Of a DNA stretch of 64,000 nucleotides, positions 5,001 to 52,579 are shown piece by piece. The notes beneath the pieces were generated by a model that was not told the origin of the DNA, made no database searches, and worked only from the letters and a program-made list of their open reading frames with translations. Where the stretch lies: the NCBI GenBank assembly GCA_905160935.1, contig CAJHZI010000262.1, positions 84,501-148,500 on the forward strand. Direction: 5' to 3'. The position numbers and the translations under genes are program-made. The stretch comes from Enchytraeus crypticus (Eukaryota; Annelida; Clitellata; Enchytraeida; Enchytraeidae). The first letter of the stretch is position 1; each line of letters begins with the position of its first letter.

Positions 5001-5388
5001 ATCTGCATTATAAGATCTATTATGTATATTATATTATGTTGATATGAAAGAGTTATTTTATTAAGAGGCTCTTTCTAACAAGTCTATATTACAATTATAG
5101 GCTAAGTTAAGAAAATCATTTCAAGTCAAAAGTAGGCATAGCTAAATATGTTGCACGTTTATTAATTAAGTCACGTCAATTGTCGTGATGGTTAAACTTT
5201 GAAATATTTGGAGGTTTTTAAGTATAATTTACTTAAAAACCATAACGAAATAAGCTGTATACTCGATAGTTGTATCATTTTAGGTGAGATTTAAAAAGTA
5301 TTTTATTGTTAACCATGTTTGTGTATGAAACTTTATTTAGCTTAAAAGTTACAATTCTGATATATTAGTTATATTAATCTATCTTAAT

Positions 5389-5511
5389 CTAATGTTGGAT
5401 AGCCGCATTAACCCTGAGCATAAAATCATCATCATCTGCACTGACGAATTTCATCGCCAGGATAGCGAACAGAGCAGCTAGCATGAACGACGCCAGTATG
5501 TAAGATTTCAT
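5389..5511 (-). CDS. Small secreted peptide precursor, copy C (40 aa)
   Basis: The ATG at 5511 follows a 35-nt untranslated leader that begins at a splice acceptor (TATTTTCAG). Residues 1-25 form a signal peptide: MKSY start, hydrophobic core FMLAALFAILAM, and a small-residue end FVSA. After it comes DDDD and an 11-residue tail (FMLRVNAAIQH), then TAG. The paralogue at 11354-11473 is almost identical through DDDD and in the leader but differs completely afterwards. Sharing of leader, splice acceptor, first exon and promoter across copies argues for a real gene. The function is unknown; a processed secreted peptide is my inference. The tail may instead run into a further exon, because a weak donor-like GGTTAA follows the Asp tract. 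I know of no family it belongs to. Confidence 0.6.
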   Translation of the reverse strand: MKSYILASFMLAALFAILAMKFVSADDDDFMLRVNAAIQH

Positions 5512-5546
5512 CCTTGCAGCTCTCTCCTGTGCTTCTGATATTGCTT
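5512..5546 (-). other. 5' untranslated part of exon 2, copy C
   Basis: Leader between acceptor and ATG. It contains AGAGAGCTGCAAGG immediately before the ATG, identical to the plus-strand copy at 11340-11353. Confidence 0.6.
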
Positions 5547-6454
5547 CTGAAAATATAATATTTAAGTTTCAAAATTTAAGCACAATATAAATAAAAGTAC
5601 TATATAATCTTTATGAAAAGCAAATTAATTAAAGTTAATTAGTGTAGTAGTATCGATTCAAGTAAATTTTTCATTAGGTTTAACAACAGGACGAGTTAAA
5701 ATCATCACAATCTTTCAAATTACAAATCAATAGCTGTAAAGTTGTCAGATCATCATGCTAAATTAGGTATTTAAAAATTTAAATGTTGTGAACATTTTGT
5801 TACGATATAAGCCCATGTGCAGTAGGCACGTCTGTAGTAGCTGAGATAATGTAAAACGATGAACGGGTGTTGTAAATTATTTTGTACAGTGTAGGTGACC
5901 ACATAATATTATGTAGTTTAACTTCCTAAACGTAGTTAAGTCGAAAAGTTTAACTACGGTACTTGAAAAATGTTAGCAATTTAAAAAGTACACTTAGGCT
6001 AATTAATTGGTTTGGTAATTAGCTAAAATTAAAATAACGTTTGCAGTGAAAGACACAAATTATACGACTGATTTAACATACTGTCACATAAGCCTACATG
6101 TTGTTATCAGCTTATAATACAGTAAAAAATAGGAAGATGAAAAGCTTGCATGTATTTGTTAAATGTCCTAGATTACTTGAAGATGTTAAAGAAAGAAGAA
6201 CGAACAACGAAAATTTATAAATCTGAGACGATCAGAATCTATCGTAAAGGCTAAATTAGTTTAATTACAGGGAGCATGGAGATATAGGCGTAATCATAAA
6301 TGATGGTAATTGTCTAATGCAATTTCTGATGCTATTTCTACTCTCTGTAGCAGGATGAAAATGCATCTCTTCTCACAGATTTATTTAACCTTGCATGGCT
6401 GTCTTTTTTGTCAACCGAATCGCAACCGCTTAGGAACTTACTTCTCTCTCATGG

Positions 6455-6580
6455 TTTTCAAATCGTTTGGGTGAATCGATTTATAATGACATGTGAAGGA
6501 GGGGCGTCCCTGATATCATCACTGTATGAGAAAATGGACGTTAAATCTTTATTTAATTTAATTATTATGTTGTATTGCCT
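6455..6580 (+). mobile_element. LINE 3' tail fragment
   Basis: Contains GGGGCGTCCCTGATATCATC followed by TATGAGAAAATGGACGTTAAA and TTTATTTAATT. This is the same 3' end as the LINE at 41760-42230. It lies in the intron of peptide gene copy C. Confidence 0.55.
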
Positions 6581-6649
6581 TAAGAATTTAAAAGCTAATG
6601 ATGAAGAGTTGGCGTAAAATATAAACCGTTGTCTAGTAAGACTACTTAC

Positions 6650-6715
6650 GTTTCTAAGAATTGTCTTAGGAAGGCGATTTGTCTTTCTATGATGATAAAC
6701 TTAACCAGCGAAGGA
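6650..6715 (-). other. Non-coding exon 1 of peptide gene copy C
   Basis: Ends in AGAAAC|GTAAGTAG (donor at 6649-6648). Aligns with the exon-1 sequences at 10280-10350 and 14330-14395 (shared CGCTGGTTAAGTTTAT and GAAAGA...CCTAAG blocks). The upstream boundary is estimated from the TATA box. Confidence 0.5.
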
Positions 6716-6737
6716 AATGTTGGATGATTTTTCTGCC

Positions 6738-6747
6738 CTTTTTATAC
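6738..6747 (-). promoter_or_regulatory. TATA box of peptide gene copy C
   Basis: TATAAAAAGG on the minus strand, about 30 bp before the inferred start of exon 1. A matching TATAAAAATAG lies at the same place in the plus-strand copy. Confidence 0.55.
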
Positions 6748-7029
6748 AACTCATTTGAAAACAAGTATAGGCGTTCACATGTATAGGCCCTATTATTTGA
6801 CTCTCATTGTTAACATAGCAATAGCAAATTAATTGTCCTGGAGATTCGGCGAAATTGAAACTTAAAAGTTACAAATAATTATATGAAGAGAATTTCTTTT
6901 AAAATGGTTATAAATTTGTCAACTTTATGAGCTTATTGACTAGATTTTTGGATTACTAAGAGACAAATATCGAGCCGTTCTCGTTATTCAGATGGTAGAA
7001 CGTTTCAATAGACTTATAAAAATATTTAA

Positions 7030-7540
<511 letters not shown>

Positions 7541-7629
7541 ATGGAAACGTAAATAAGGGCCAGTTTCCAAATTAGTATAGTTTGTTTTCATGACCTTAAA
7601 GTATAGGCCTGCTTGATTCAGAATCCAGT

Positions 7630-7790
7630 TGTTTGCTACATGAAGTTTTTAATGGCAGATACTGAGATGAATTGAATTCTCGTGGGTTCGAATCCCAGCC
7701 GAGATTACCAAATACGATATTCTTTCTGTTATATGCCGCTAATTTAGTGCCTAAATTATTGACTTTGAATGTCTTCTGTATGGTAGGCAT
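7630..7790 (+). mobile_element. SINE3 fragment
   Basis: Contains GGGTTCGAATCCCAGCC, a tRNA-type B box, after ATTGAATTCTCGT. It resembles the copies at 26515-26745 (plus) and 61410-61640 (minus). Confidence 0.45.
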
Positions 7791-8064
7791 GTATTATAGC
7801 ATGACAAGATATCGCGTGTTTATTGAAAAGCAGTTATGATCTCAAAAAATTAATCATAGGCCAAATCCAGCGAGAGAGCTCGGATCGCTTCCGTTGATTA
7901 ATTATCCCGTTGGTACATGCCTAAAGCAGCTCAGGTAGTTGATGTTCAAGACATGTAGGCCCCTATAGGCCTATATTTCATTTTGCATAGCATGTTTTAA
8001 AGGGATTTTAATGTAAGTGACAAAAACCGAAAAATTTCTCGACGACGATCACGCAAAAGTACTG

Positions 8065-8105
8065 CGAGACTCAAGATTTTAACCACGCATATACTGATCC
8101 GCGTT
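8065..8105 (-). mobile_element. SINE1 copy, first half (split by hAT)
   Basis: Ends in ACTGATCCGCGTT; the SINE continues at 8861 with CGAATATCTTACCGAC. Together they match the minus-strand SINE1 copies at 16092 and 32637. Confidence 0.6.
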
Positions 8106-8852
8106 CAGGGGCGGATCCAGGAATTTTTTAAGGGGGGGCTCGAAAATGTTTTTTGGACTACACATTTTTGCTTATGCCCCGCCTTCTTCGGGACCTGACG
8201 TAACCAGAAAAAATGCTGTGTGGGGGCTTAAAATTTTTCAGCATACTGGGCTCGGCTCATAGAGTGAGTATATCCCCGTATCTTACCCCCCCCCCCTCAT
8301 ACCCGGACTAAAGTGAGAGGAAAACCTAAAATGCCTAAAATCCTACATTTGTTTAGGAAAAAAGTAGGTTAATTTTTTCACATCTGAGGCTCTGAAGAAA
8401 CTCAGCGGATCTGGATCAATTGCAAAAGTGACCTAATTTTGGCGGAATATGGGGGGGCTAAAGCACCTCGATCCCAGCCAAGGCGGTTTGCACCACTGTT
8501 CCTGGAGAGAGTTCACATTTTTATTTACATCAATTTTCCTCTCTTATACAGTGGCTAAAGTGAAAATTGAGAGCTAGTGAAAAGGTCAACATTTTTCGGG
8601 CCCCCCTACCGTTATATGGGCTCATATTTGAAAAAATTCCAGGTAGTCGGACTGTTCGAGTTCCCTTTTGTGCCCCTCTAACGCCCTTAAAATATATTTA
8701 CACCTAGAAATTGCATAGAAACAATGAAAATATAGTTTAAAATTTTTTAAAGTTGGGCCTAAGGGGGGGGACCGGGCCCCCTGGGCCCGGGCCCCCCCTT
8801 AGGCCCAACCTTAAAAAATTACCCCCCTTAGGCCCCCCTGGATCCGCCACTG
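8106..8852. mobile_element. Non-autonomous hAT-type element with 8-bp target duplication
   Basis: Begins CAGGGGCGGATCCAGG and ends CCTGGATCCGCCACTG: inverted ends of about 16 bp with one mismatch. Identical TCCGCGTT flanks lie at 8098-8105 and 8853-8860. CAG...CTG ends and an 8-bp duplication are hAT hallmarks. No transposase is encoded. The target is a SINE1 copy, so the element is younger than that SINE. Confidence 0.8.
8740..8820. repeat. Large GC-rich palindrome inside the hAT element
   Basis: AAAGTTGGGCCTAAGGGGGG is mirrored by CCCCCCTTAGGCCCAACCTT around a GGGCCC-rich centre. It would form a very stable hairpin. Confidence 0.8.
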
Positions 8853-8860
8853 TCCGCGTT

Positions 8861-8905
8861 CGAATATCTTACCGACATATCCACTGGCTCCAGCCAGTGG
8901 CCTAC
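8861..8905 (-). mobile_element. SINE1 copy, second half
   Basis: Continuation of the SINE after the hAT insertion; ends in CACTGGCTCCAGCC, the complement of the SINE1 head. Confidence 0.6.
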
Positions 8906-10249
8906 ACTAATCAACAGGCCTAAGTAATTTTATTTGCTGCGGGGTTTGAACCCTCTTGGCTGATGTATGACCCCTGCTAAGGTTTTACCCCTTAATTGTT
9001 ATAGCCTTCTTTCTGTGGCAATTCTGACGACCCCTCCCTGGTAAGCCTTCGACCCCCCAACCCCATCGAACACCTAGGAAAAAGTTAACAAATACAACTC
9101 TGCCGTTCAGTTAAAGCTAGTAAGTAGAAATAATCATATTAAGCGCTCAACTGTTTTCTGGGTAAGCCCATACGGGCCTGCCTCTTCATAATTTTTAAAT
9201 TTCAATATCAACACCGAAAGGTGAATATTATTAATGATCGATTTTAAATGCAACCGAAATTTCTACAAGTTTAGGCTAATATTCTATTACTCACGGAACT
9301 CCGTGTATATCCGATAAGTTTTTAAAGGAAAAATCTACAGGAATTTTTCTGGCTAAATATACAATTGTATTTTAAATGAGTATATGAAACTTATCCAATT
9401 TTTAAATGAAAAATCTACTGGCTTTACTCTGATTCAATATGGAATTTAATATTAAATGAGTATTTGAAACCTCTCCATTTAAGAGTAGGCTAATTTTTTA
9501 TGGCTTTAAGTTTAAATATACTGTAGCCTACCGTATTAGATATAGTAGCTTAGTCTTTCGCAAAATGTAGGCCAATTTACTTATGATTTAAAAAATCAAC
9601 TCGATCGCTGATTTTGTCATGCATCAGTTTAGAAGTATGCCTAGACCTATACGAATGAATTTATGATGAAATTATAGTTCATAATACTGTATATTGCATT
9701 GCTTTTCCAAAAGGAAATGATCCTAGGACGAAATGATTTTTGACAACCGAAAAATGTAGTAGTCTTACACAGAAACGTTGATTAGAATTTAACTGTTGAA
9801 GAATAGAGAGTATTTTGAGATCCTAATAATATAAAGATCTTAATGCTTAAACCTATAATTAACAGATTTAACTAATATTTTTTGATTTGACTAAATGAGT
9901 TTAGCAACTAAAATGTTGAGTCAATTTCACATTTTAACTCAATTAATATTTGGAGTTATGGTTATGCTTTGACTCAAAATCCGAATTTTCTTCGTAATTG
10001 GTAACTCACCTATCACGGCTAATAAAAGGCCGAAAATTTTTTCTAACATCTGGATTCTGCGAACGGATCGATATTAGTCTATAAATATCCGGTCAATAAG
10101 CATACAGTAGAAAATGTAAATGCATAAGTGTAATCGATCTGAATAAATTTCTACTCACTGGATAACAACATTTTTTTTTTTTTTTTCAAAAGACAATATG
10201 CTAGTGTCTTGCTAACAATGATTTGTAGGCCTTATGCTTGCTCAAACTG

Positions 10250-10260
10250 TATAAAAATAG
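10250..10260 (+). promoter_or_regulatory. TATA box of peptide gene copy A
   Basis: TATAAAAATAG, 30 bp before the inferred start of the non-coding first exon. Confidence 0.5.
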
Positions 10261-10279
10261 CTGAAAATGTATCTTATTC

Positions 10280-10350
10280 AGTACTTCTTCCGGCTGCTAA
10301 GTTAATTTCTGCAGAAAAAGGTTCGACTTCCTTAGACTATTCTTCAAAAC
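10280..10350 (+). other. Non-coding exon 1 of peptide gene copy A
   Basis: Starts around CAGTACTTCTTCCGG and ends CAAAAC|GTAAGTACT. The donor is strong and shared with the other two copies. The intron to 11320 is 970 bp. Confidence 0.5.
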
Positions 10351-11353
10351 GTAAGTACTATATTTAGTTATTTTTATTTTACGCAAACTGTTATCACTTT
10401 TAGTAACTTTTAGCAGCACGACTAGTGTAAGATATCGTCACCATTTAAATATATCCAGATGAGGCCCATCCATAATCCAGTACTTTCTCGATCCCTTACT
10501 TTTCACACGTAGACCTAATTCGGCAATTCAAATGATCAATTAAAGTAGACCTATAGGCCTGTTTGGGTTAGTTAATTGTTTTTAATGAATCCTGACAAGC
10601 ATGTAATTGCTTTCTGACCCAGTACAGCTGTGATATATTTAAATCTGTAATTCTTCTTTGTTCATTCTTAATTCTTCTTTCAATTACCTCTTTAGGTAAT
10701 TTAGGCTATTACAAAATAGCATATACAAGCACTTCGGTTTGTTATTTCTTAAAGTACCATAAGCTGCCTATCAGTATACAAATTTATCAAACATATGTAT
10801 TAACGAGTTACATTTATCTTTTACTGCAAAATCTATTGGAAGTTATTTGCATTCTAGTTAATTGCTAAGCCAATTAAATTAAAACCATGCCATGGTTGTA
10901 GTTTTAAAATTATCATAATTCGCGTAGCAGTCCTACCTAGCAAACCTCTAAGTACTTATTCAACATAGCTGCTCTCTTGAGTTCAGTTACTCTCATAATT
11001 TTTATCTTAGTCTTTAAATATCATTACTTAATGCGAATGATCGAATCTATGTAAGTTTTCAAGGCAAATGAAGCAACAAAGCTATGTACGTTTGCAACGA
11101 AGCTATGTACGTTTTCAAAAACAATTATTTTTATTCTCCATATACTAATGCAAATATACATGTATATCAGAGGAGGACTTAGTTTGGATCTTCACAAAAT
11201 TGTCACCACATTTTATTTGGCAAGCTGGTCAACAATTTTATAGCTATTGCTTTACAATTTGAAACAATATGATGATTTTTGACTCATCTCTACAGATAAA
11301 TACACGTATAATATTTTCAGAAGGGATCAGAAGCACAAGAGAGAGCTGCAAGG

Positions 11354-11468
11354 ATGCAATCTTACATACTGTCGTCGTTTATGCTGGCTGCTCTGTTCGC
11401 AATCCTGGCGATGAAATTCGTCAATGCAGATGATGATGATATTCTAAGTTTTGACTTGCTTGGAAACA

Positions 11469-11473
<5 letters not shown>
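11354..11473 (+). CDS. Small secreted peptide precursor, copy A (39 aa)
   Basis: Exon 2 starts at 11321 after ATATTTTCAG, and the ATG is at 11354. The signal peptide is MQSY followed by the core FMLAALFAILAM and FVNA, with predicted cleavage after residue 25. The mature part is DDDD plus ILSFDLLGNK, then TAA. Only three residues differ from copy C in the first 29; after the Asp tract no similarity remains. This pattern, a constant signal and a variable mature peptide, is known for secreted effector, antimicrobial and signalling peptides, but I do not recognise a family. An (AT)n tract starts at the stop codon and may have truncated the original reading frame. Confidence 0.6.

Positions 11474-11517
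<44 letters not shown>
11471..11517. repeat. (AT)n microsatellite
   Basis: Pure TA run directly at the stop codon of the plus-strand peptide gene, followed by further ATATAC-rich sequence to about 11585. Confidence 0.9.
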
Positions 11518-11523
<6 letters not shown>

Positions 11524-11655
11524 GTATATATACATGTATATATAGCCTATATATATACATGTGTATATATATGATATAATATGCATTAACATTGTTATCA
11601 ATAAGATGTTTTAAGAGATCTAACATATAACCCGTCTCGAAGACACAAATGAATT

Positions 11656-11661
11656 AATAAA
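11656..11661 (+). terminator. Candidate poly(A) signal, copy A
   Basis: AATAAA about 180 bp after the stop. Homology with the 3' flank of the minus-strand copy continues past it (AGAGCCTCTTAA at 11742-11753 matches 5063-5074 inverted), so the true end could lie further on. Confidence 0.3.
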
Positions 11662-11819
11662 TTTACTATATATTGAGCTGTCAACTGTTGACTTTAAATG
11701 AATTACTTAACGTGTCATTGTAGTAGATTTATTTTAGGAAGAGCCTCTTAAAAACTTTTTTCATATTAAAATCTCCAATTCCACTTCAAAGCCAAACTTA
11801 AAACCAAGTATAACATACG

Positions 11820-11900
11820 TTTCTTATCTCGAAATTGGGTCAATGATGGAGTGCTGAATGTGAACCATGCATCTACTGACCCGCAGTCCGGTCACTTACC
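11820..11900 (-). mobile_element. SINE1-like fragment
   Basis: GTGAACCATGCATCTACTGACCC resembles the B-box and centre of minus-strand SINE1 copies. Strongly diverged. Confidence 0.35.
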
Positions 11901-11965
11901 AACAAGCTACGTACCAAACAGCTAACACATAATATGCCCATGCTATAGTGAAATGATATTTCATG

Positions 11966-12022
<57 letters not shown>
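11966..12022. repeat. (AT)n microsatellite
   Basis: TA dinucleotide run ending in ATAGGCCTATATAT. Confidence 0.95.
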
Positions 12023-12025
<3 letters not shown>

Positions 12026-12148
12026 CCTATATATATATCAGTTTTAGTATCACATGTTCCAACCAATAGATATTTAATTAATAGTGAATTATCCATTTTA
12101 GGCTACCAGTTCTGTGAGTGCTCGAAAGTTGACTCTCTCATTTTATTC

Positions 12149-12159
12149 TCTCTCTCTCT

Positions 12160-12195
<36 letters not shown>
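12149..12195. repeat. (CT)n microsatellite
   Basis: CT dinucleotides next to a tRNA-like SINE head. The same arrangement is present in the duplicate at 15370-15400. Confidence 0.9.
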
Positions 12196-12197
<2 letters not shown>

Positions 12198-12275
12198 TCA
12201 ACCGGGAACTGAGCCGACGACCTTTCTGACGCTACGAGACACTCACTCTACGCAATGAGCTATTTACGCATTCTA
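12196..12275 (-). mobile_element. tRNA-like SINE head (family 5)
   Basis: On the minus strand this reads TAGCTCATTGCGTAGAGTGAG (A-box-like) and GGCTCAGTTCCCGG (B-box-like) before a (GA)n tail. It is duplicated in unit B at 15400-15490. Confidence 0.45.
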
Positions 12276-12479
12276 TATAATAACACAATGTGTCATAAAA
12301 GGAAAAATGTATGATAATAAACTGTTGATGCATCGCGTTTACATATCAGCGCTTAAAGTGAAAGTGGTGGATGTTGTGAAAGTGGACCGTATGCTGCAAT
12401 GACATAGAAACAAAAACTTATAAAATTACATCAATTCCTTTAAAATAATTAAAAAATTAACCAGAGTGATCTAATAACT

Positions 12480-13079
12480 TAGCATGGAAAACAGTATTAA
12501 AGAAATAATTCACTAATTATTGAATTGAATTGTACATCTTCATCAAATTCCTCTCTGCAGTAAACTGAAGTAAGCGATGACCGTTAGCGTCCTGCATTGT
12601 CGAACAAAATTCACTGAGATGAGCTAAAGACCATGAAAAAGAAGGAAGTATAATTTCTCCCACTCATTAAACTGGTGCTGATGCAGATTGAAATTGTTTC
12701 GCAATCCAATGGTGGTAAGATTGAGGTTTGATTGAAGAAAATATTTAAGAGAAATAGTAGGCCTATAAAGAATTGGAATAATAGAGGATTGGAAGAAATT
12801 AATAGAAAGGTCAATTGCAGAGAACAGAAATGCAGCAGAAAAAGTGAAGATTCATGAAATTGGAGCAGTAGGCTAATCGAGAATATGTATGGAATTAGAT
12901 AAAAGAGTCTATAAAAGCGGGAAAACAAATTATATGGTTTCAAATAATTAGCAAGAGCCAAAAAGGCATAGATCGTAAATGAAATGCTAAACATGATGGA
13001 TGAAAGAAAATGGAAAAATTTAAATAAGTAGGACCTATGCAAGACTAATACAGCAATACTGTAGATTTATGTTATGGCT
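12480..13079. other. Spacer between duplication units, no gene
   Basis: Purine-rich plus strand with many stops. The 143-codon minus-strand frame (12611-13042) is only its Phe/Ser/Leu-rich complement. It may be a decayed LINE, but no motif is clear. Confidence 0.35.
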
Positions 13080-14329
13080 ATAGGCTATTTGCTGTGAGGT
13101 TCGAAGGACCCCTCTTGGCCAATGTGTAACCCCTGCTAAAGTGTTACCCCCCCCCCCATTTGTATTTGTTTTAGCCTCCTTTCTGTGACAAATTCTTATG
13201 ACCCTTCCCTGGAAAACCTTCGACCCCCAACGAGCCCCCCTTGGAAATTTTTTTAAAATTTAATACAACTTTGCCGTTACGTTAAAGCTAGTATGTAGGC
13301 CTAGACATAATTATATTAACCGATTAAATGTTTCTAGGTAAGATTATACAAGCAGTATAGGCCTGTATCTTCAGTATTTTTAAATTTCAATATCTACACT
13401 GAAAGATGAATATTATTAATGATCGATTTTAAATGCAGCCTAAATTTATACAAGATTGCCTACGCTAATTTTATAATAATGGCGGAAATTCATCTATGTC
13501 CGATGAGTTTTTGAAGGAAAAATCTACTGGAATTCTTCCGGCTAAATATAGAATGGAATTTTAAATGATTATATGAAACTCATCCATTTTTAAAATGAAA
13601 AATCTACTGACATTAACCTGGTTGAATATTGAATGAATTTAAAATGAGTAGGCTTATTTGAACCTTAACCAATTAACATTAGGCTAATTTAAAATTTATG
13701 CTATCTTTAATTAAGCCTATAAATATACTATACCGTTTACGATATTGCTGCTTAGTCTTTCGCAAAATGTAGGCTAATTTACTTATGGTTTAAAAATCCT
13801 ACTCAATCACTGATTCTCTTATTTAGCAGTTTATAAGGAGGTCTATATGAATGAATTTACGATGCAATTTGATTTCATAATATCTTACAATGCATCTTCA
13901 AAAGGAAATGTTCCTAGGATGATATAATTTTGGACAACTGAAAAAATGCAGTAATCCTGGTCCTATACAATTTTTGGAGCAATTAACTAATTTTTTTTAG
14001 TTTAACTAAATGAGTTAGCATCTAAAATATCGAATCAATTTCACATTTTAACTCAATTTTTGAGATAGCCTATAGTTGATGCCTATCACGGCTAATAAAA
14101 GGACGAATATAATTTCCAATATCTGGATTCTACGAACGGATCGATATTGGTTTGTAATACCTCAATGGATAATAAAATTTTTTATCTACTCAATGGATAA
14201 TTACATTTATTTATATCTCTGAATCTCGAAAGACCATGTGTCATGTTAACAGTGATACATATCCTATACTTGTTCAACTAACTGTTTAACAACAGCTGAA
14301 AATTTATCCAGTACTTATTTACTATCCAG

Positions 14330-14395
14330 TACTTCTTCCGCTGGTTAAGTTTATATTTGCAGAAAGAAAGATTTCCTAAGTCTCTTCTTAAAAAC
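14330..14395 (+). pseudogene. Relic exon 1 of a third peptide gene (copy B)
   Basis: CAGTACTTCTTCCGCTGGTT through AAAAAC|GTAAGTACT aligns with exon 1 of copies A and C, including the donor. The TATA position reads TGTTTAACA instead of TGTATAAAAA, and no signal-peptide exon follows within the unit. I read it as a dead copy. Confidence 0.55.
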
Positions 14396-14672
14396 GTAAG
14401 TACTAGTCAGTTATTTACATTTTACGCAAACTCTTATAACTTTTAGTAACTTTTGGCGGTATAACAAATGTAAGTTTAAACTTTGGACTGATTTTCTTGA
14501 TTTTGGAATTTTCACCGTTTTTGGACCTTCTTTTTGCTCGCCGGCTTGATTTTGTCTCAATAGTGCTCGATGTTGTCATTGATGACTGTAGCACTCTAAT
14601 TGCTATTATTATTATTATGATATCGTCACCATTTAGGATATATCCAGATGAGGCCTATCCATAGTGTTGTAC

Positions 14673-14835
14673 GAAAGTACTTAACAAAATACTTTAAGTA
14701 AAAGTAAAAGTAAATGTTTGATAAAAGTAAAAGTAAAAAGTACTTTATCAGAATTTTACTTAAGTAAAAAGTAAAAGTACTCGACAAAAAGTAGTACTTT
14801 TAAGTAAAAAGTAAAAGTATTCTGAATTTTTACGA
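14673..14835. mobile_element. MITE of the AAGTAAAAGTA type
   Basis: Begins GTGTTGTACGAAAGTACTT and is filled with (A)AGTAAAAGTA in both orientations, as in widespread hAT-derived MITEs. The right end is unclear. Confidence 0.5.
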
Positions 14836-15119
14836 AAACAAATTACACCTTAATAGAAAAGTTCTGCACGTTCTTAAATTAGTTTAGTTAGTCACTCCAT
14901 TTAAATTCATATTACGAACGGAAACTTTAAACTCAGTGACTGAAGTTTCTGAACTAAAAGAATATTCGACCCAAATGCGCAGGCTTATATTAGATTTTAA
15001 ATTTTTACATTACATTAAATGTTAAATTCACAATTAAGTTAAATTAACATGGTCAACTCAGACTCTCTCTCCAGTGTCCTATTAAGTAAGTAGCAGGTCT
15101 AATGTGATCATACTCCTAC

Positions 15120-15200
15120 TTACATGCTGCCTTCACTACCTTCGCGCTCCTTAAAGAGCACTCCACTGACTAAAGAGTTATCCCTGCTCAAATGTCTATG
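15120..15200 (-). mobile_element. Repeat family D fragment
   Basis: CCTTAAAGAGCACTCCACTGA matches the inverted end of family D seen at 52025 and 63855. Confidence 0.4.
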
Positions 15201-16091
15201 AATTACACCTTAATTTTTCCGAAAACTTCAATAGGAATTGTCGTTCTCAGATCTGACTCGGTCGCCTCTTAAGGCAAAGTCTACTGTCGACGTGATATGA
15301 TTTTCTTTGTATAAATGTAGTATATTTTTTATAAAAAGAGACCCGTAACAAGCGCACCGAGATTTCTCTCATTTCATTCTCTCTCTATCTCTCTCTTTGC
15401 TCAACCTGGGACATGACCTGATGACCTTAAGAAAGCCACATAAAAGTTCCTGACGCTACCAGACACTCTAAGCACAGAGAGAATTAGACATCTATATAAT
15501 AATACAATGTATCATAAAAGGAAAAATGTATGATGATAAACTGTTGATGTATCGCGCTAACATATCAGCGATTAAGAGGAAAGCGGCGGATGTGTGAAAG
15601 AGGATCGTACATGTATGCTGCAGTGACAAGGAAGCAAGAAAATTATAAAATTACATCAATTCCTTTAAAATAATCTAAAAATTAATTGGTAGCAAACGTA
15701 TAAATTAAGATGCCAGCTTCGGATTTGCATACCTCGGTATATAATGAATAGGCCTACCCACATACTACCTCAGCTACGGCACGACATAGGCCTATTAGTC
15801 GAAACTTATAAACTCAAGAAAATAGTTCAAGATGATTAGTGTTGGTATAACGAAGTCTGATGTGCTACTAAAAATTACATTTTTGGACAAAAGTACACAT
15901 TCGGCTGCACAATTCAGTAAAATAAAGCACAAATCAGCTGTAGCAGTAGTACAGTGAAGCAAGTACAGCAGTTTCCTATAATATTAAAACTTTATGCGGA
16001 AGAAAGTGAGAAGATGTCCTCTAGCGGACACATCGAACAGCAGACAAGTATATTACATATATGGAGAGATATAAGTGTACGAGAGCTACAT

Positions 16092-16225
16092 TTAAAGCTG
16101 GTAAAGCTAAGGTAAACGTCAGTTTCCTCACTCGAAAGCGATGTCAGTGACGGGCGAGACCAGGATTTGAACCCCGCATATAGTATTCCGCGGTCGAGTA
16201 TCTTACCGACAGTGTATAGATGGTA
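16092..16225 (-). mobile_element. SINE1 copy
   Basis: Minus-strand copy with tail AAAGCTAAGGTAAACGTCAG, TTTCCTCACTCGAAAGC, B-box complement GGATTTGAACCCCG and GTCGAGTATCTTACCGAC. Confidence 0.8.
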
Positions 16226-20145: not shown

Positions 20146-20248
20146 CTAGTATATATCCTGACATCTCGCCCAATCACGCTTCCAGTACTCACCCGTAAAC
20201 AACCAATCATCTTTCTGCGTATATAGGTTCTTCCCCTGCTTAAACCAT
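20146..20248 (-). CDS. ORP exon 13 (C-terminus)
   Basis: Acceptor ACTTCCAG|A, stop TAG at 20146-20148. Encodes [20 protein letters not shown] and [13 protein letters not shown], matching W.TRWFYPG...DWLYAGDYF...CPDIY at the end of ORP1/2. Confidence 0.92.
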
Positions 20249-23200
20249 CTGGAAGTATCCATAAATAGAATAGAATAGATAATATGTTTATTTTTCAGCA
20301 AAGACACAAAATGCATATCGCGAGAAAAATTGGTCGTCAGTGAAGATACAGAGTAGGCTATCTTATCTAGCTGACTACCATGATAATTATTTTACTTACA
20401 GTTCTTAATAAAGCTAGTATTAGTTCCTAGTTCATAATACATACAAAGTTGATCTTTTAATCTACATGTTTAAGTACATGTATAAATATGAAGATTTTCA
20501 ATTTCCTAAAGGATATAATATAACTCCTTAAGATCAGAATGCATTTGATGATTGTCCTAGAACCATTCTGAATGTTTGAACTACCAATTAACAAGTTAAT
20601 ATCCTCATAGAAATTTCATGTCCTTTCGATTACAAAAATATACACAATATGCAAACTTAGTCTGAAAAATCTATTATATTTATGGGTAATATCACTAAGC
20701 AATATCTAAAACTAATTCTTACGAGATATATGCTTTATAATGTCCATTATAAATAACCAGCATTTATCTACCAAATCAATTCTGAAGCATTTACTAAACA
20801 AAAGTAATTTCTAAATTGAAATTAACTGCATTAACAAATTAACTGGAAGACACTGCAAGTATTGACATATCAATAAATAGAAAAAATATTTTATGTTAAA
20901 GAATATTTTTGAAAAGCTTTAAGCCTTGATAAGTTAGTAGCTATCCTCTTCTGCCTTTGCCTTGTAAGCAACTAACATCATCATCATCTTCCCTTGAAAC
21001 CCAGTTTAACAAGGGTCGGATTAGAAAATCTTGCGAAATTTCTGGAGCCTAGGCGCTCACCAAGAACTAAACAATGAAAGCCCAATCTTCAACCGAATTA
21101 ATGAATTCTGGCGTTGGTTTGGATCTTAGTGCTTTGTCGCCTTTTACGACAAGAGCACTCCACGGTTGGTCTATTCTTCAGCAATCCGTATACAACAAGA
21201 AATAAAGGTATAAGGGTATAAGGCTCTGTAAACAACTAATAAATGACAAAATTTCTAATAAAGTTATTTAGTACTTTAGACCTACAGTATCTTTTAAACT
21301 TTTATCAAGCTAATAATTCTTCTCATTCTCACAAATTCTAATAATTCTCATTTTTCTCACGCTCTCTCATTCTCCTTAGCGTTGTGACAAAACGATAGTT
21401 AAAAAGGTTCAATAATGAAAAAAATTGATTTAAGTAGAAATAATCGTGAGCACTACAAAATATATAAGAGAATAAGTTTGATAACTATAACAGATAAGTT
21501 CTCAGTAAAATCAATGGAAACCAATCAGTGTTCTGGCAGTATTAAATATTTACTCACACAGGCTCGGGGTCTTTCTTCTTTCTCTTGTCCTTCCTCGAGG
21601 CTCGCTGCTTCTCCTCAATCCTACTCTTCTCCTCGCCTGCCATATCTAAACAACAACAACAACAACAATGAATAATAAAACATCAATGCAGCAGCAATAT
21701 TTTAGCCACATTAGGCTGAAAAATCATCTCCATGAAATAGAGTAAAAGTTTACAGATGATGTTTAGTTTTATGAGGATGTGTCGCACTAGATACGACCAC
21801 AGGCCATGAAGATTTTTACATAATTATGAGTGCACTACTTAGAACATTCTACATTAGCTAAGTTTTCTTCAACTGTAAAAATGAGAATAAGAACATTACA
21901 AAATTATACAAATTATTAGCCTAAATATTAATGATAGAGTAATTTCGTAAGATTTACTGTATCACAGCTGTATTATTACCACTGACTAAGTAAAACGATT
22001 GCCTACGAAATATCTAAATTTGAATTTGTTATGAATTAGTCTCTAAAAGTATGATATTCATCTAGTAACTATAAAAATAAGAAAATAACACATTTCATAA
22101 ATAAAAACTCAGTGCACGAAGCTTTTCAGATTTACAAGAAAGCAGTCAGAGCCTGTCCGATTGAGATTCGAACCAGTAGCCTTTTATATATGGGGCACAC
22201 AACATACCTATCGAACCCTCTTCCATCTTTCTGATGTCAGGTCGAAGTCTCGAGTCAGTGGGAGGAAGACGTCTAACTAGTGAATCATCCAGTTCATTCA
22301 ACATCAGAGCAAAACTTGTGAAACCGTAGTACTGCGTCAATCAATCAATCAGTTAATTGATTAATCCATTAATCGCTCAAGCGATCATTTGATCATACAG
22401 TCAATCAATCAACCAATCGATCAACCAATCGTTAGAAGCAATGAGATCCTAACAGAAATAAATGAAATATTCATTTAATTAAGTCTTATTAATTAATAAT
22501 TAACACAAAATATCAGGCAGAAATACCAATCAGTGAATAGCATATTTAATCAACCAACTAATCAATCAATATATCAGCAAAGTAGGCTACGCAAGAGCAC
22601 TACAGTATAAATTCACACAGAGCCAAGAGCACATGTCTAACAGTACTATATACTGCTAGTATCAAATCCTTAACTTTACTAGGCATTCAAATGCTCAACT
22701 GGCTATTTTTAACATCAACGTCTGCTTTGGAAAATCATCAAAACAAAAACAACAACGTACCATATGAGCATCGCTGGGCTTGGCTGTGGCCATCCACAGC
22801 AGCTTCTGAGATGGAAGTTTGAGGTCGCAGGTGGAACTCCGGACAGGCACGTCTTCTGGAACGTTCATTCCATCCACACCGACGTCAGCGGACAATCCGT
22901 CGGTGTTTGGAGTGCTGTACATCGGCATGAACGGCTCGCTGTTTGATTTCTCTAGGACAGCTTTCACAGAGGCGCCACCTGACGAGAGATCTCCCTCCGA
23001 GGTCACACTCGTGTGAAGCTGCCACAAAGTGTTGTGTATGTAGTAAAATATAGGACGTAGCAGTGATGGTAACACGAACAAGTACTTTGATTGTCATATC
23101 AAAGTACTTGTTGTGTGTGTAGTAGAGGCGTCACGGCAAAAATATAGGACGTAGAGGAGATGGTAACACGAACAAGTACTCTGATAGTCATATCAAAGTA

Positions 23201-24668
23201 CTAGTTGTGTATGTAGTAGAGTCGTCACGGTAAAATATAGGACGTAGCAGAGATGGTAAGACGAAAAAGTACTTTGATAGTCATATCAAAGTACCGTGGC
23301 GTACAGTGTATATCAATCATTAATGTCATACAATTAATTATACACTAGAAATAGTAAAAAAAATTTGCCATGGAAGGTAGAAAAAACGGATTAAATTCTT
23401 ATAAAGAAATGTAGAACTAAATGCTATATCAGGTTATATATGTATTGCAGTAAATGGTTCATTGGTTTTCAAATTAGTAGCCTATAGGTTATCAGACAAG
23501 CTTGCTATCACCTCGGCTGCTATACCGCACAACAGAGATGTTTACAACATCAGCCACAAATAGTAAGAGGCACATAGTTCTGTGGCTCAAGTGGTAACTT
23601 TACATATTTTTTATTATCATGGAAGGATTTCAAATACTGGCAAAGCTGATCAAAACTGAAACTAAAGGCATAGAGCTGCTAAGCATTGTTGTTAATCATT
23701 GTACTGCAATCTGAATAAAATGTTTGAGAATTTAAGAATGAGATAATTTTACTAAATATTTCATTAATTTGGTTAATTTAATACCATGTACGTAAAACCT
23801 TACACCCTAGAACAGGATAACACGCTAAAGCAATGTTAACACGTTAAAGCAATGATGACACGATAAAGCAATGTTAACACGTTAAACCAATGATAACACG
23901 TTAAAGCAATGATAACACGTGAAACCAATGATAACACGTTAAAGCAATGATAACACGTTAAAACAATGATAACACGTTAAAGCAATGATAACACGTTACA
24001 GCAATGTTAACACGTTAAAGCAATGTTAACACGTTAAAGCAATGATAACACGTTAAACCAATGATAACACGTTAAAGCAATGATTACATATTACACCAAT
24101 GATCACAGATATTTGAAAAGCTATCGTAGACTTACATAGTTGGACGGAGGCGACGTTGATGAAGATTGTTTATTAGACGACGACATAGACAGCTGCTTCA
24201 TGTATTCATCATACTCATCCACACGGAAGCTGTACATAGCATCCACCCATTTCCCATAGAAAGCTCTTATCTTCCGCTTCCTACAGCAAATCAATCCATT
24301 ATATATTTTTTGATTAAATCAATCAATCTATATGTTAATTAATCTCATAAGAAAAACTCAATCAATAGTAGATCAACTAGATTTAAGTTGTTGAGTTAGA
24401 GTTAAATGCTACCATTTATAATCATCTCACACTATCTAACCTTAAGGATAGGCTAACCTTTACGATAGGCGAAAGAAGTGTATCCTCTATGATTAACTTC
24501 ACTGAAAATCTAATCAAAACCACGTTTAAAGTAAGTTTCACGTCTCAAAAGCATATCAGCCTCTGTGCGAGCCCTATATTTGAACCACGTACCTACCGAT
24601 CCGCAATCGGCCACCTTTCGAACCTTTTATGGACTCAGTCCAACTCTAAACGATATAACCCAAAAGAG

Positions 24669-24712
<44 letters not shown>

Positions 24713-24804
24713 ATAGATATATAAGATATATAAGAAGATATATAATATATATATAGATATATATATATCTATATATATATATATAAGATATATAAGATAA
24801 TATA

Positions 24805-24848
<44 letters not shown>

Positions 24849-27800
24849 ATATATATATAGATTATATATATATAAGAGTTATATACCTAGGACCTGACAA
24901 CAGACCAGGAGAAAAAGAGTGAGAATAATACTTTATATTAATTCTTCCTATGTCCATTCACAAATGCAGAAAATAAATTGGAAAACGAAATTGAATGCTA
25001 AAACATTATATACGCATATTTTCTACGGCAAACAGCTACTCACTGATTATCAAATAGAAATCCCTCAACTTTATGTAAGTCTTTACCGAACCAGCCGCAC
25101 GGCTTGAAGTTGAGCACAGATTTATAGTTGTTCTTGTAGTTTATCACTTCCATTGTTCCGTACTGCATGAAAAGAAAACTATATAATAAAATCATACACC
25201 ATAGCTTAAGTTGCAAATGTTATTCTATAGATTCTTATATAAAATTAACATAAAAACATTATCTCACAGCACTGTCTATTGGCAGGACCATGGTATATAC
25301 TGCCTCCACTCTTCTCTGTCTTCCGTTTTCCTCTTTATTTCCGCAAAATAGTGGATCTTTAAATATTCTAACAGTCTTAATCTTGGTCTGCCTCTATTTC
25401 TCCTTCTTCCATTCTACTTTTTATGAACTCCTTTAGTAAACTATCCCCCATTAGAAAGTGTCCTATGCATTTCTTCTTCCTAACAAAATATACAATACAA
25501 CCAGTGGAATTGGACTGAGGTTATTCACAAAGCGTTGATTGCTGAAATAGACGCTTGAACTTAAATAAAAGATGACCATGATATGTTTTACATAGTCAGG
25601 ATGTATGGATAGTATACGATTAGTATACGATAGTATACAGGATGTATGGATAGTATACGATTAGTATACGATAGTATACAGGATGTATGGATAGTATACG
25701 ATTAGTATACGATAGTATACAGGATGTATGGATAGTATACGATTAGTATACGATAGTATACAGGATGTATGGATAGTATACGATTAGTATACGATAGTAT
25801 ACAGGATGTATGGATAGTATACGATTGACTGGGCTTTTTACAAAGCATTCGTCGTTTTCTTTCATCGTCAATCTAAGTCAATCAGATAACGAAACAAACT
25901 TAAAATTACCGCTCTCAGAGTGGTCCACGTAATAAATCTAACAATTTACTAATTTTACACTTAAATAAGATTAAAATTGTTATCAGCTTTAATATTATTT
26001 AATATTATTTAATATTATTTAATATTATTTAATATTATTTAATATTATTTTACAAGCAAGCTCTTACATGCTCGATCCAGAGTTTTCCCACAATGATGTT
26101 ATGAACACAACAGTTAATGTTTTGCCATGAGTAGGCTTCGTTGTGTCTATAATCAATCAATCAATTAATCAACCAAACAATAAAATCAATCAGTCACTCC
26201 CTCCCTTCGAAAAGCTACGTAAAACTCTACCTAGTAATACTTTCGTTATAGACACAAACTACGGATGATGTAATAATGACGATTAACGTGATGATTGCCT
26301 GCTGCGAATTAGAGCTTTCGTGTCATAATTCCGATAATGATAAACGATCAATGATAGAAAGATATAATAGAAGTCCTAATAATTAATTAAGGAAAGCTTA
26401 AAGTCTGCTTTTATATTACAAGTGGACTGTCGGCGACGGTGAGTCTAAAACTCTCTGACTCCACCAACTTTATCGCCAACCGGTGTTACTAAAAATATCT
26501 CATCAAACTATTGAATGTCTCAATAGCGTAGGGGTAAAGTCATGAACTTTTAAAAATGACAGATCCTGAGGTGAATTAAACCTTCATGGGTTCGATTCCC
26601 AGCCGCGCTGATCTGAGAGTAAAATCTCGGACATTCACTGGGCTGGATACAGGGAATATATTCTAACATGCCTAACGGTTTAAACATATGATATTAAAAG
26701 TGATAGACATCAACATAGTTGATCATTTCACTATAATGCGTGTTTACTTTTTACTTACTCAGAAATTATAAGAAGATTACAAATTAATATTTGTACGTTT
26801 AGCATAACGAACCGCTTAAGATAGAGCGTGACAAGACCCTTTGGCGTGACCTCGACGGACTTGCCCCAGAACTTGAGCTTGGGGTGCATGGAGCCGTGAA
26901 AAGTGTAGTCAGGCGAGTCCGCGTGGAAAGCGCTTATAGGCGGGTGATGACTCACCTGCTCACAGACAATCCTAAATCCCAGGTCCTCTCTACGATCAAT
27001 CAATAGTCGAACAGACATGGGTTAATTAATTAGTCTAATAAGCTCAACTGATTGATAAGTCAATAGATCAATCAATAGTTGAATAAATCAATCAATAGTT
27101 CAATAGACATAGGTAAATTAATTAGTGTTAATATACTCAATAGATTGGTAAGTCAATAGATCAATCAATAATAGATCAAATAATAGTTGAACAGACATCC
27201 GTTAATTAATTAGTTTAATAAACTCAATTAGCAGATAAGTAATTAAAATTCCCTTTCAACAGTTTCAAACTCAATTGATTGATAAATCAATATAATTTCT
27301 TTCAAACAGTTACATTTAATTTTCGTTATATATCTTTTGAAAGGAGTATTAAATAATACTATATCTCTAATATTCCCCGTGTTGTGTCCGGGTTGTTTGA
27401 AGACTTGACCAACCGGTGACTGCACGGGTCGTGGAAGGCGATTAAAGCACTAAGATCCACACCAAAGTCAGAAAGGGCATTCAGTTGTTGAGCGCCTAGG
27501 CTCCAGAAATTGCTACAAAATTTAAAAGACTTAAAATGTCTCAAATAGGGGAATGACTGATGTATGATATGATGTAGGACAGAAAGGATTTGAGACAGTC
27601 TATTCGTAGCCCGACCCTTGTTAAACTGGGATTCAAGGGAATATGATGTTGATGACGACGTTGTCCATAATAAATTATTGTGTCCGGAAACGGATGTGAA
27701 ACATTTATTGTTATTATTATTAAATATCAGATCCATGGTAAATCACTAAAAATTGTTGGCAATGAAGCTCATAAAGATCAAGACAACCACTAACTAGTTG

Positions 27801-29559
27801 ATCCCCTTTATTCTCTCATCGCACAAAAATCTACAGCCGTAAGGCAATACAGTTTTCATTCAAATCAAAAAATTTACCGAAACATCGATTTAGATTTTAT
27901 AAGTTTCGAATGTCCAAAACTGCAATTAAACACCTCACGAACAGCGATAAATATAAATTAATATAGGAATCGGACTTAAGTACCTATCTAGTTCGTAAGT
28001 CTCACAAAGCAGCGGATTGAAAGGCTTTCCTATTCTCTCCCAGTTCGATGCCGCCGCAGAAACTGCGAAAGCCGTCACCAGCTGTTAGCAAAAACAGTAT
28101 AAAAGAATAAAAATACAACTCAAGGTATCTACTGGAAATAAAGTACGAGTGAATCACATATTAATAATATTAATAATATTATAACATAACACAGAAAAAG
28201 TATAATAAAACAGGTTAACTGCAAGGCTGTTTAGTCTTTAAGCTAAAGTCTTGTTAAGGTCAATAAATTGTTGTTAAAGTCAGTTTCATCTCTAACAAGG
28301 AAATTAGTGACCGGGGAGCCCAGGATTTGAACCCCACATTCTGTTCCCAGTCCGGCAGAAGGAAAAATGATTAAACATCAATTTGTCGGCTGATTCGTCC
28401 CACTTACTCTCACCACACAAACTGATTCCACAGAGACACTTCACCTGTCTGCAGAGAAACAATTCTGCCTGTACAAAAGTCACTATCGGTGCGGCGCCAG
28501 CCTGGAAATACTTAACAAAATGTCCGGCATTGTTTTTATACGTGTCCGGTCACGTTTTTATACGTTTAATCTATGGAATACATGTTTCCTTTGTTCAATT
28601 ACATCAGACAAACTTTTTACAGTTTTGTCACAGAGTTTTTCATACATGTCTTTTAAAATAAAATATTCATCAGCTTCCAATCACAGAGGCACAGAAGGAA
28701 ATAACTAGATTCACTGCCCAATTCATAACTGATTTAGCAGCGGTATTGAGTGTTCAAAAATTCTTCCTCTGCAGTATTTAATGTAAAAGTTATTACTATG
28801 GCACCCACGCGAGAAAATCTCCGACAGTACATTTATGGGTGCGCAATAGCCAGTAATACTAAGCTACTATCTACACTAGTAATACTAGCTATACTAGTAA
28901 TTTACACTACGAGGAAAAAGCACCAGCAATACCCAAACGAAAAAACCCCATGAAAAAACATGCCTTTCACATGGGATCCCCATGTGAAATTCTCTAAATT
29001 TTTGTTTCACATGTGTTTGATATGAATCACATGTGGTCTATTCATGTTATTTTGTGTGAATTACATGTTGGGTTCATGGTGCACATGTGAATCACACGTA
29101 TCCCATAGAGTATTTAAAATAAACCCCATGTGATAACATGGGAATTCTTCATGTGGAGTTATGGGGTTGTGGAAACACATGTGAATAGTACCAGATAAAT
29201 ACATGTATATAATACATTTCTGTCCAGCGAGAGCGTTTACAAAGTAATTTCTTTATATAATCGTATTTATGCCATTTCGTTTAGTTTTGTTAGTTCTGTA
29301 CACTATTATATCAAATGGAAGTATTTGATGTTGAGATCTTTCTCTCTCTCTCTCTTTCTCTCTGTCTCTATCTTTCTATCTATCTATCTGTCTCTCTCTC
29401 TCTCTCTATCTTTCTATCTATCCATCTATCTCTCTCTTTCTCCTGCTTCTATCTGTCTCTCTCTCTCTCTATCCTCTCTCTCTCTCTCTCTCTTCTCTCT
29501 CCCTGACTCTCTCTCTGTCTCTCTCTCTGTCTCTATTTTTCTTTCTATCCATCCATCCA

Positions 29560-29595
<36 letters not shown>

Positions 29596-32500
29596 CCCCT
29601 CTCTCTCTGGTGTTCTAACATGTGCGATGTTCAATTAATTTAGATATATATTTCTGTTCACATTTTGCTTTCTTTTCTGTCCACATTCGGCTGGAGCCAG
29701 TGGCGAAGTCGGTAAGATACTCGACCGCGGATCAGTAGGTGCGGGTTCAAATCCTGGGCTCGCCCGTCACTGGCATCGCTTTCGAGTGAGGAAACTGACG
29801 TTAACCTTAGCTTTTTTATAGCTTTTTTCACCTCCCCACAGAGACGTTCATGAATTTTTACTGTCTCCGCCCCTATCGTAAAGTCATGGAATGCTGGGAT
29901 AGGTGTGATAATGATCGTATTAGGGTCGTATCATCCACGTACAATAGAACAATGGCAGGGCCGTAGCGACCCTCTACGCTCTGCCCTATGGAGCGCGTTA
30001 TGAGCAGTCCATCTATTATAATATAGCAATTTCTTACAATTGCCTTACAACTGCCCTCCTGGGCTCGCCAGTCACTGACATCGCCTTCAGTAAGGAAACT
30101 ACATGCCGTCAATATTAGAATTCTTAGCATTTACAACTGCAAGTAATTCTGAGAGTATTATTATAATGAGAGTAAATCACATTCAGTATAATTCACAGGA
30201 TTGATTACACGGAAATCGAATAAATCAATTGCCTCACTGTCTAAATCTGTGGTAGTAAAATTGGTCGATATGAACATGATTGCTCATTTCACTGTAATGT
30301 TTGTTATTACAAAAGGCTATAGGCCTAAATTACGTCGCCTACGTAGTAGGCCTACGTAGCTTACGGATCATTCAATCATAAGCATTCCGGGGGCGCGAAT
30401 TAATGCAGTATCGAACACTTTAATTTTAACAATTAAGTCTCTCAACTTACTAAGCAAGAATTATATAAGTTAAGCTAAATATAATATTTTGCTTCTTCAA
30501 AAAATGAGTTCCATCGAAATTCAAGTAGGCACGCACCTAAATTCAAATATTTAAAGTTGTTAGAACAAAAATCAGCTTCTGCAGTAATTAAGCAGAGACT
30601 ACTATTGCTTGGAGGGTCGTAAAGTAACAGTATCTCCTTTTACATCTAGGCCTATAGCAATTGCCTGAAATTATCTTTTTAATGATAATAGTCGAAATAA
30701 TAAATAATAGCCTAATAATAAATATTAATTTAGCTGATGGATTTATTTACATGTTATTTACAAGAGATCCATTTTTAATTGGACTGATTCTCTGGAACTT
30801 AGACTTTGAACCGTTTTAGGATCTAGTTATTTTTATCCGTCGCTTGAAAAAATGACGTCCCACAGTGATAGGTGTTATCGTTGAGGAAAGTTAATTTAAT
30901 ACGCTCATTTATGTTGTTGTTGCTGCAAGAAATTACTTTAAATGACATAGTTTTCGAAACATGGTAATACTGAATAGAAACACATGTTTTGAAACAACAA
31001 TGGCGGCGTTGTTAAAATACAAATCGAAACAAAAATTTAATTTAATTAAGATCTTCTAGCATTTTTGAGATTTCTTTAAACTGATGGTGAAGACTATAAA
31101 GATTTTGCAAATACTTTAGTTAAATTAATACAGCTAAATAAGTTAATATTCTATAAGTTAAATACAGCGTAGAAATTAAGAAGTAGAAAAATGAAGTTCG
31201 CACTCGTGGATTATTTGGACAAAACATTTATGAAACAATGTATCTGAATATATCCAGGGTAGAGACCATGTATCGTTGAAAAATGAAAAGTTGAAATTAA
31301 AGGAGGTTCTTCGAGTTGATTGGTCGAACACAACTGGTAATCTACAAAGAGATCACCTTGTGAATTCACATTTTGCCCGTCAAAACTCTGAGATTTTCAA
31401 GTAAGCCTAATTCGATTGGCTATTTACAGTGCTATCACTAATTTTTACACATTTTATTTTGTATTTGCCATTGTATCCATAATAAACCACTAATTTATAT
31501 TACATTTCATTGTGTTTTAAGTGTATTTATTTCTTGTTGCATGTAATTGTATATTATATATTATCAAGTTGTTTCATCAGGACTTCAAGCTAGGTATTTT
31601 TTTCAGTTTTTTCACTGATAGTCTATACGAAATCTTTCTTTTACTTGATAGATTTAACAGTTTACTTTATAAGTTTCAAATGTTATTTCTGCTTATAATT
31701 TTATAAGCCCTAACAAAATTTCAACTGGGTAAGCATTCAAGCGCCCTCAGCGACATCCAATGAATTTGGTCGAGTGATGTTAACTGCTTTGTTTTCCTGC
31801 TACAGATGATCGCCTGCATGGTGACTGGCAACGATGCTAAAACAGAGAGTAGGCCTACTCTCTTACAGAGCAATAAATGATGGAATGTGAAGAGCGTTTT
31901 GCACCGAGGATGAAGACGAGTTACAGGTTGAATATAGTTGTACTGTTTATTTTTGTGTTGTCATTATATTAGAGTCATCATTTCCCTTGAATCCCAGTTT
32001 AACTAGGGTCTGGATACGAAAGGACCGTCTCAAATCCTCTTTGTCTTACATCATATCGTCAGGAAGTTCCCTATTTGAAACTTTTCCATTCGCTGAGTTG
32101 GCATGATTATAATCAGTTTATTATAGTCATTTAAAAAATCACGATTTATTGGATTTTTTAAATGAATAAAAATTTTAAAAATAATTTTTTAATTTTTAAA
32201 AATGTTAGTGATTTTTTAATTTTCAAGAATTTGCCCAATAAAAAATGCAAAATAAGTTCAATTCAAATTAACTTTAATCAACCTGGTAAAGAATGACACA
32301 ATTTGCCGAGCAGCGTACATATTCTGCCTAATCAGCTGGATTAGAGACTCTTTAGTACATTAAAGCTGACTTATGCTAATCTTAGAACTCAGCTAGGCGC
32401 TGAAAAAGCTGGAAAACTAGCATTTATGTACCATGCGCTCAACAAAGAAAAATAAATCTTCTTACAAAATGTTGTAAACCAAACATTGATAGTAATAATG

Positions 32501-50070: not shown

Positions 50071-50192
50071 GATTAATGTTTTTCTGAAAATGGAGACGAT
50101 TTCTATTTGTCGTACTCCATGAGACACTGCCCACATGCTTGCTTAATTGTACTTACAAAACACAGATTTCGTATAATGTCATGCCAGGTTAA

Positions 50193-52575: not shown

Positions 52576-52579
52576 CGGC

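Follow-up and report, generated by a model that had tools for sequence, protein, structure and literature searches.

The question raised by this locus is what is encoded by two short open reading frames (ORFs) that begin almost alike and end differently. They lie in a stretch of 64,000 nucleotides of the annelid Enchytraeus crypticus (GenBank assembly GCA_905160935.1, contig CAJHZI010000262.1, positions 84,501 to 148,500, forward strand), which was analysed as a whole and is called the window. The ORFs belong to gene A on the plus strand and gene B on the minus strand; a third copy, C, is read as broken. We class A and B as a new pair of orphan genes for micro-peptides with predicted secretion. 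The reading favoured here, to which we give a probability of about 0.5, is that they are real, old, lineage-restricted annelid paralogues for putative secreted acidic micro-peptides, the conserved part of which ends at four aspartates (DDDD).

Layout of the two genes

Both ORFs lie at the positions given for them in a preliminary description of the window. The features of the two genes are as follows.

Gene A
10250..10255, plus strand: TATA box (TATAAA), read from the sequence; it aligns with that of gene B and is degenerate in copy C
10280..10350, plus strand: exon 1, non-coding and without ATG, from the alignment; start site predicted
At 10351, plus strand: donor, GTAAGTAC, read from the sequence
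10351..11320, plus strand: intron of 970 nucleotides, predicted from the donor and acceptor sequences
11321..11353, plus strand: exon 2 leader, with 1 difference from gene B in its last 28 nucleotides
11354-11473, plus strand: ORF A, 39 amino acids
11354..11428, plus strand: predicted signal-peptide codons 1-25, MQSYILSSFMLAALFAILAMKFVNA, with V at -3 and A at -1
11429..11440, plus strand: DDDD, encoded by (GAT)4
11441..11473, plus strand: tail ILSFDLLGNK and stop, followed by a (TA)n tract
11656..11661, plus strand: polyadenylation signal AATAAA, aligned with that of gene B

Gene B
6741..6746, minus strand: TATA box (TATAAA), read from the sequence; it aligns with that of gene A
6650..6715, minus strand: exon 1, non-coding and without ATG, from the alignment; start site predicted
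At 6649, minus strand: donor, GTAAGTAG, read from the sequence
5547..6649, minus strand: intron of 1103 nucleotides, predicted from the sequence
5512..5546, minus strand: exon 2 leader, from the alignment
5511-5389, minus strand: ORF B, 40 amino acids
5437..5511, minus strand: predicted signal-peptide codons 1-25, MKSYILASFMLAALFAILAMKFVSA
5425..5436, minus strand: DDDD, encoded by (GAT)4
5389..5424, minus strand: tail FMLRVNAAIQH and stop
5158..5163, minus strand: polyadenylation signal AATAAA, from the alignment

In both predicted mRNAs the first ATG was the start of the ORF, with an A at -3. The AATAAA signal was conserved 3' of the ORF in both genes, so no third exon is needed, and A and B look like complete two-exon genes. 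The transcription starts, splicing and poly(A) sites of both genes are those that we infer from the sequence. The intron of gene B contained a dispersed repeat (about 6332-6568) matching other places of the contig, and a long GACA/GATA microsatellite (7070-7540) adjoined the gene.

Duplication and constraint

The alignments of A and B showed a common TATA box, exon 1, GTAAGTA donor, ATATTTTCAG acceptor and leader. A block without gaps (A 11326-11443, B 5539-5422) was identical at 110 of 118 positions (93%). When the global alignment was cut into windows of 100 columns, the main window of exon 2 was 93% identical and the other windows were 32-75% identical, the value of 75% resting on 12 ungapped columns. 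At 35% divergence, the probability of 6 or fewer differences in 87 positions is about 8e-10. Chance is therefore excluded as the source of the likeness between A and B, given this probability, an expectation value (E) of 1.8e-38 and the low identity elsewhere. The shared elements, the nearly identical signal followed by DDDD, the divergent C-termini, and a gene duplication in which non-coding parts are conserved alongside had all been claimed in the preliminary description, and the alignments bear these claims out.

Codons 1-29 differed between A and B by six substitutions, of which three were synonymous and three non-synonymous, giving a non-synonymous divergence (dN) of 0.046 and a synonymous divergence (dS) of 0.174 (NG86). 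Over the whole 118-bp block, the signal frame contained four synonymous and four non-synonymous changes. Both remaining sense frames had fewer synonymous changes, with one synonymous and seven non-synonymous in each. The antisense frames contained 2/6, 4/4 and 2/6 synonymous/non-synonymous changes, each with at least one stop. The conserved block starts 5 nucleotides past the splice acceptor and stops at DDDD, and in the leader 27 of the last 28 nucleotides before the ATG were identical; these may act as a purine-rich splicing enhancer or a translation leader. Taken together, the sequence shows a duplication, a common gene anatomy and a constraint on the signal frame that ends at DDDD.

Copy C and the number of copies

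Parts of gene A and its flanks were found a third time on the plus strand.

13086..14672, plus strand: 5' part of copy C, a duplicate of A 8931-10483 in two pieces of 68% and 86% identity, with a degenerate TATA box and an intact exon 1 donor
15279..15712, plus strand: 3' part of copy C, in which A 11680-11754 is repeated at 15279-15351 and A 12159-12486 at 15363-15712

No exon 2 of A or B was found within copy C or between its parts, the best match (E 1.2) lying 5' of exon 1 as a chance match; about 600 bp of other sequence occupied the expected site. Copy C (13086-15712) is thus read as a broken gene that has kept exon 1 and lost exon 2, and the degenerate TATA box is expected because the coding exon is gone. 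In the 20 kb left of the window no further copy was found at E<=1e-3, the matches there being to the repeat in the gene B intron. When the assembly (524,188,772 bases, 802 contigs) was searched with protein A, the loci of A and B were the only two matches at E<=1e-3; paralogues with another second exon may exist beside them. The small family proposed earlier is therefore, within the searches made, two intact copies and one broken copy, a pair rather than a family.

Predicted signal segment and tails

The N-terminus of both proteins consisted of MKSY or MQSY, a hydrophobic core and KFVSA or KFVNA, followed by DDDD. The best 15-residue mean hydropathy was 2.49 and 2.66 in the two proteins. The short amino-terminal region (n-region), the hydrophobic core and the small residues at -3 and -1 (V-x-A before DDDD) are features of a secretory precursor, and V at -3 and A at -1 were kept in both. 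A simple signal filter was passed by both proteins. The same filter was applied to the 292 ATG-initiated ORFs of 30-60 amino acids in the window, nested starts counted, and 11 of them passed. Since signal-like short ORFs are not rare, the case for a signal peptide is based on conservation and not on the appearance of the ORF. The predicted cut after VNA or VSA would give DDDDILSFDLLGNK or DDDDFMLRVNAAIQH, acidic peptides of 14-15 residues that start with DDDD and have net charges of -4 and -3. No Cys was found in the whole sequence of protein A or B, and no dibasic site (KK, KR, RK or RR) was present in either. A structure model of A gave a single helix (residues 3-38, mean predicted local distance difference test score, pLDDT, 78), which does not discriminate between a secreted and a membrane product.

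The tails following DDDD had been called unrelated, and they were indistinguishable from a random pair: aligned in frame and with a gap of one codon, they had at best 15 of 33 bases identical, a value reached by 13% of shuffles (p 0.13). Of random positions in the window, 55% were followed by a stop within 11 codons, and the tails are 10-11 codons long. In similarity and length, therefore, the tails appear as by chance and give no sign of being kept. This would fit either a lack of constraint or fast change under selection, as judged from two sequences.

Search for relatives

Neither A nor B had a Pfam match at E<=10, and B had none in the PDB. In a set of 5.8 billion proteins there was no candidate for B; this is a weak negative, as the method needs three shared words of 5 residues and very short ORFs are maybe not in the set. 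The host itself is apparently not in the set, the best relative of the oxysterol-binding-protein-related protein (ORP) of the window being identical at 267 of 358 positions (about 75%). Animal proteins are held in it: the mariner transposase of the window, used as a control, gave 907 matches at E<=1e-3 and the ORP gave 729 at E<=1e-100. Among 120 and 52 pattern matches in viral and prokaryote contigs, respectively, no relative was present. A ten-letter string of protein B occurred nowhere in the literature searched, and looking there for the sequence or the kind of product was unproductive. A known protein family for A and B was therefore rejected on the Pfam (A, B), PDB (B) and protein set (B) results, in keeping with the initial remark that no described family was recognised.

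Other features of the window

An ORP1/2-type gene was found at 20149-35615 on the minus strand. Ten pieces of its exons were recognised, of which three were weak and two matched Pfam PF01237. A tree was built from the window protein and 62 of its 120 listed matches. The window protein fell in a fork with 100/100 support and 19 rows, the named members of which were only the annelids Ridgeia and Helobdella, and on this basis the host is most likely an annelid; no echinoderm was among the named rows. A shortened mariner-type transposase ORF of 228 amino acids was present at 47300-47986 on the minus strand. Most of its listed relatives have about 350 amino acids, and one public protein was 98% identical over 82% of the ORF.

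Another repeat, perhaps a short interspersed nuclear element (SINE), was dispersed in both orientations. Its copies measured about 60-140 bp, had 80-95% identity and were found at the following positions.

16093-16210
29684-29814
32636-32784
41184-41247
50191-50338
51635-51775
63427-63570

A long repeat (37505-38542) contained long ORFs on both strands, those of one strand being of NINRN type and those of the other of LILFL type. A tandem array was found at 52226-52586, with copies offset by multiples of 20 bp.

Discussion

In the favoured reading, local duplications, both inverted and tandem, would have given rise to A and B. Each gene would have a TATA promoter and a non-coding exon 1, separated by its only intron from the one coding exon, which would specify a precursor of 39-40 amino acids. 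The hydrophobic N-terminus would be a cleavable signal peptide, so that what leaves the cell would be an acidic peptide, 14-15 residues long and beginning with DDDD. Purifying selection would keep the signal and DDDD as well as the final 28 nucleotides of the leader, while the tail of 10-11 residues past DDDD would drift freely or change fast. The splicing, translation, cleavage and export of the products are steps that we infer from the same letters. Several observations weigh against this reading. The case is built on only two sequences, with both transcript and protein product predicted. One antisense frame of the block also had four synonymous and four non-synonymous changes, though with a stop in both copies, and the low dS of the block could stem from gene conversion. 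The signal filter also passed 9 ORFs other than A and B, and the hydrophobic stretch of 16 residues was strictly identical in the two proteins, beyond the usual need of a signal peptide.

The last point leads to the main rival, which we regard as unlikely. Here the product would be an uncleaved single-pass membrane micro-peptide, the helix and DDDD being the working part that regulates or binds a membrane protein, and the tail an unimportant leftover running to the first stop. This would account for the strict conservation of SFMLAALFAILAMKFV and DDDD alongside a random-looking tail of chance length. The n-region of gene A (MQSY) has no Lys or Arg, which also points to a membrane product; the modelled single helix agrees with it without telling the two apart. 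Against it stand the cleavage site, which is a good one with V-x-A followed by acidic residues, and the positions of the amino-acid changes. Signal peptides tolerate changes at position 2 of the n-region, at small residues of the hydrophobic region (h-region) and at -2, and the three changes in codons 1-29 lie at n-region position 2, at a small h-region residue and at -2. The preliminary description had instead seen in the constant signal and divergent mature part the pattern of secreted peptides with an effector, immune or signalling role; selection would then have diversified the mature part behind a conserved signal. The constant signal, divergent tail, local duplication and loss of an exon in copy C are consistent with this, and published cases are the aphid cassette effectors (PMC7495047) and conotoxin genes (PMC3862624). 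Against it stand the number of intact copies, only two, and tails of chance-like similarity and length. The charge, cysteines and processing sites typical of such peptides are also missing, as there is no Cys and no dibasic site and the net charges are -4 and -3; this step of the description was not supported and appears rather unlikely.

Two further explanations are each given very little weight. The signal ORF may not be the product at all, exon 2 being the last coding exon of another protein, coding in another sense frame, or acting as RNA. The second sense frame (..IRSTxESCKDxILHTxVVxAxCSVRxPGDEIRQCR) runs without a stop across the block in A and in B. It terminates (TGA TGA TGA) inside the GAT repeat, exactly at the conservation border, and it would also account for the conserved leader. 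It was nevertheless rejected, with some doubt, on its seven non-synonymous changes against one synonymous, the lack of an ATG in exon 1 or the leader, and the lack of a Pfam match; in every frame, moreover, a 2-nucleotide indel near the acceptor shifts the phase of A against B. An N-terminus extended in frame with SEAQERAAR, open in both second exons, was ruled out by an in-frame stop in exon 1, the lack of an ATG and the phase shift of the same indel. A trypsinogen-type DDDDK activation peptide was not preferred, as no K and no protease domain follow DDDD. The other explanation is a recent gene conversion between A and B that mimics constraint on exon 2, in which case one or both copies may be decaying. 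The synonymous divergence of 0.17, below that of the intron and flanks, speaks for it. The block, however, lies between functional borders at its two ends, neither frame is broken, and each gene has retained its promoter, splice sites and poly(A) signal. Because the borders of the block coincide with the acceptor side and DDDD, selection on exon 2 fits better than a blind conversion tract.

A bolder form of the secreted reading, to which we give only a low probability, is a two-gene, lineage-born secretion cassette with a fixed leader, signal and Asp4 under nearly nucleotide-level constraint. Its tails would be interchangeable, each recruited where translation runs on into adjacent non-coding DNA until a stop is met. 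If true, it would be a minimal device for trying out new short extracellular peptides. Genes for peptides of fewer than 50 residues are easily missed in annotation, and A and B may be one case among many orphan secreted micro-genes, worth annotating and of modest interest at present. With its full predicted gene anatomy and the sharp border between constrained and free sequence within one exon, the pair would allow a test of whether new mature peptides originate by drift behind a fixed signal.

Comparison with known systems

Neuropeptide precursors contain dibasic cleavage sites and often an amidation Gly; the dibasic sites were absent from A and B. In conotoxin superfamilies the signal is conserved, and A and B likewise have a conserved signal with a variable mature part. 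In the conotoxin genes, most changes fall in the mature-peptide exon, introns are conserved within a superfamily, and eight of the nine superfamilies studied have three exons corresponding approximately to signal, pro-region and mature part (PMC3862624). Unlike these Cys-rich peptides, A and B have no Cys framework in the variable mature part, and signal and tail lie in one exon.

Animal antimicrobial peptides (AMPs) are generally cut from precursors with a signal peptide; those of annelids include BRICHOS-AMPs with a BRICHOS domain and a cationic, Cys-bridged hairpin, and the linear hedistin with bromotryptophan (PMC6780910). A and B are also short annelid peptides, but no BRICHOS pro-region was found in them (no Pfam match at E<=10, length 39-40 amino acids), nor a cationic Cys-bridged mature peptide (no Cys, charges -4 and -3), and they resemble neither the hairpin nor the bromotryptophan peptide as portrayed there. 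Hydra arminins and periculins are small peptides made with a signal peptide and secreted; their genes are clustered and confined to the genus, and they are marked by many paralogues, a bipartite charge and cysteine patterns (PMC10945409). A and B are similarly clustered, lineage-restricted and predicted to be small and secreted, whereas they are two genes with an acidic stretch only; the passages cited on this system do not mention a fixed signal followed by a freely varying part.

In the aphid KQY/KHI cassette effectors, the region coding for the signal peptide is highly conserved and divergent sequence is joined to it, while the transcripts of most KQY members are also partly identical towards the 3' end (PMC7495047). 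They are proteins of 9.2-24.4 kDa with many tiny exons (37 in KQY1a), form groups of eleven and six genes and are known from salivary proteomics (PMC7495047). A and B differ from this account in their length of 39-40 amino acids, their one predicted coding exon and their being two genes known from sequence, and neither the KQY and KHI signal motifs nor many mini-exons were found in them. What A and B have in common with these effectors is a conserved signal region followed by a divergent remainder.

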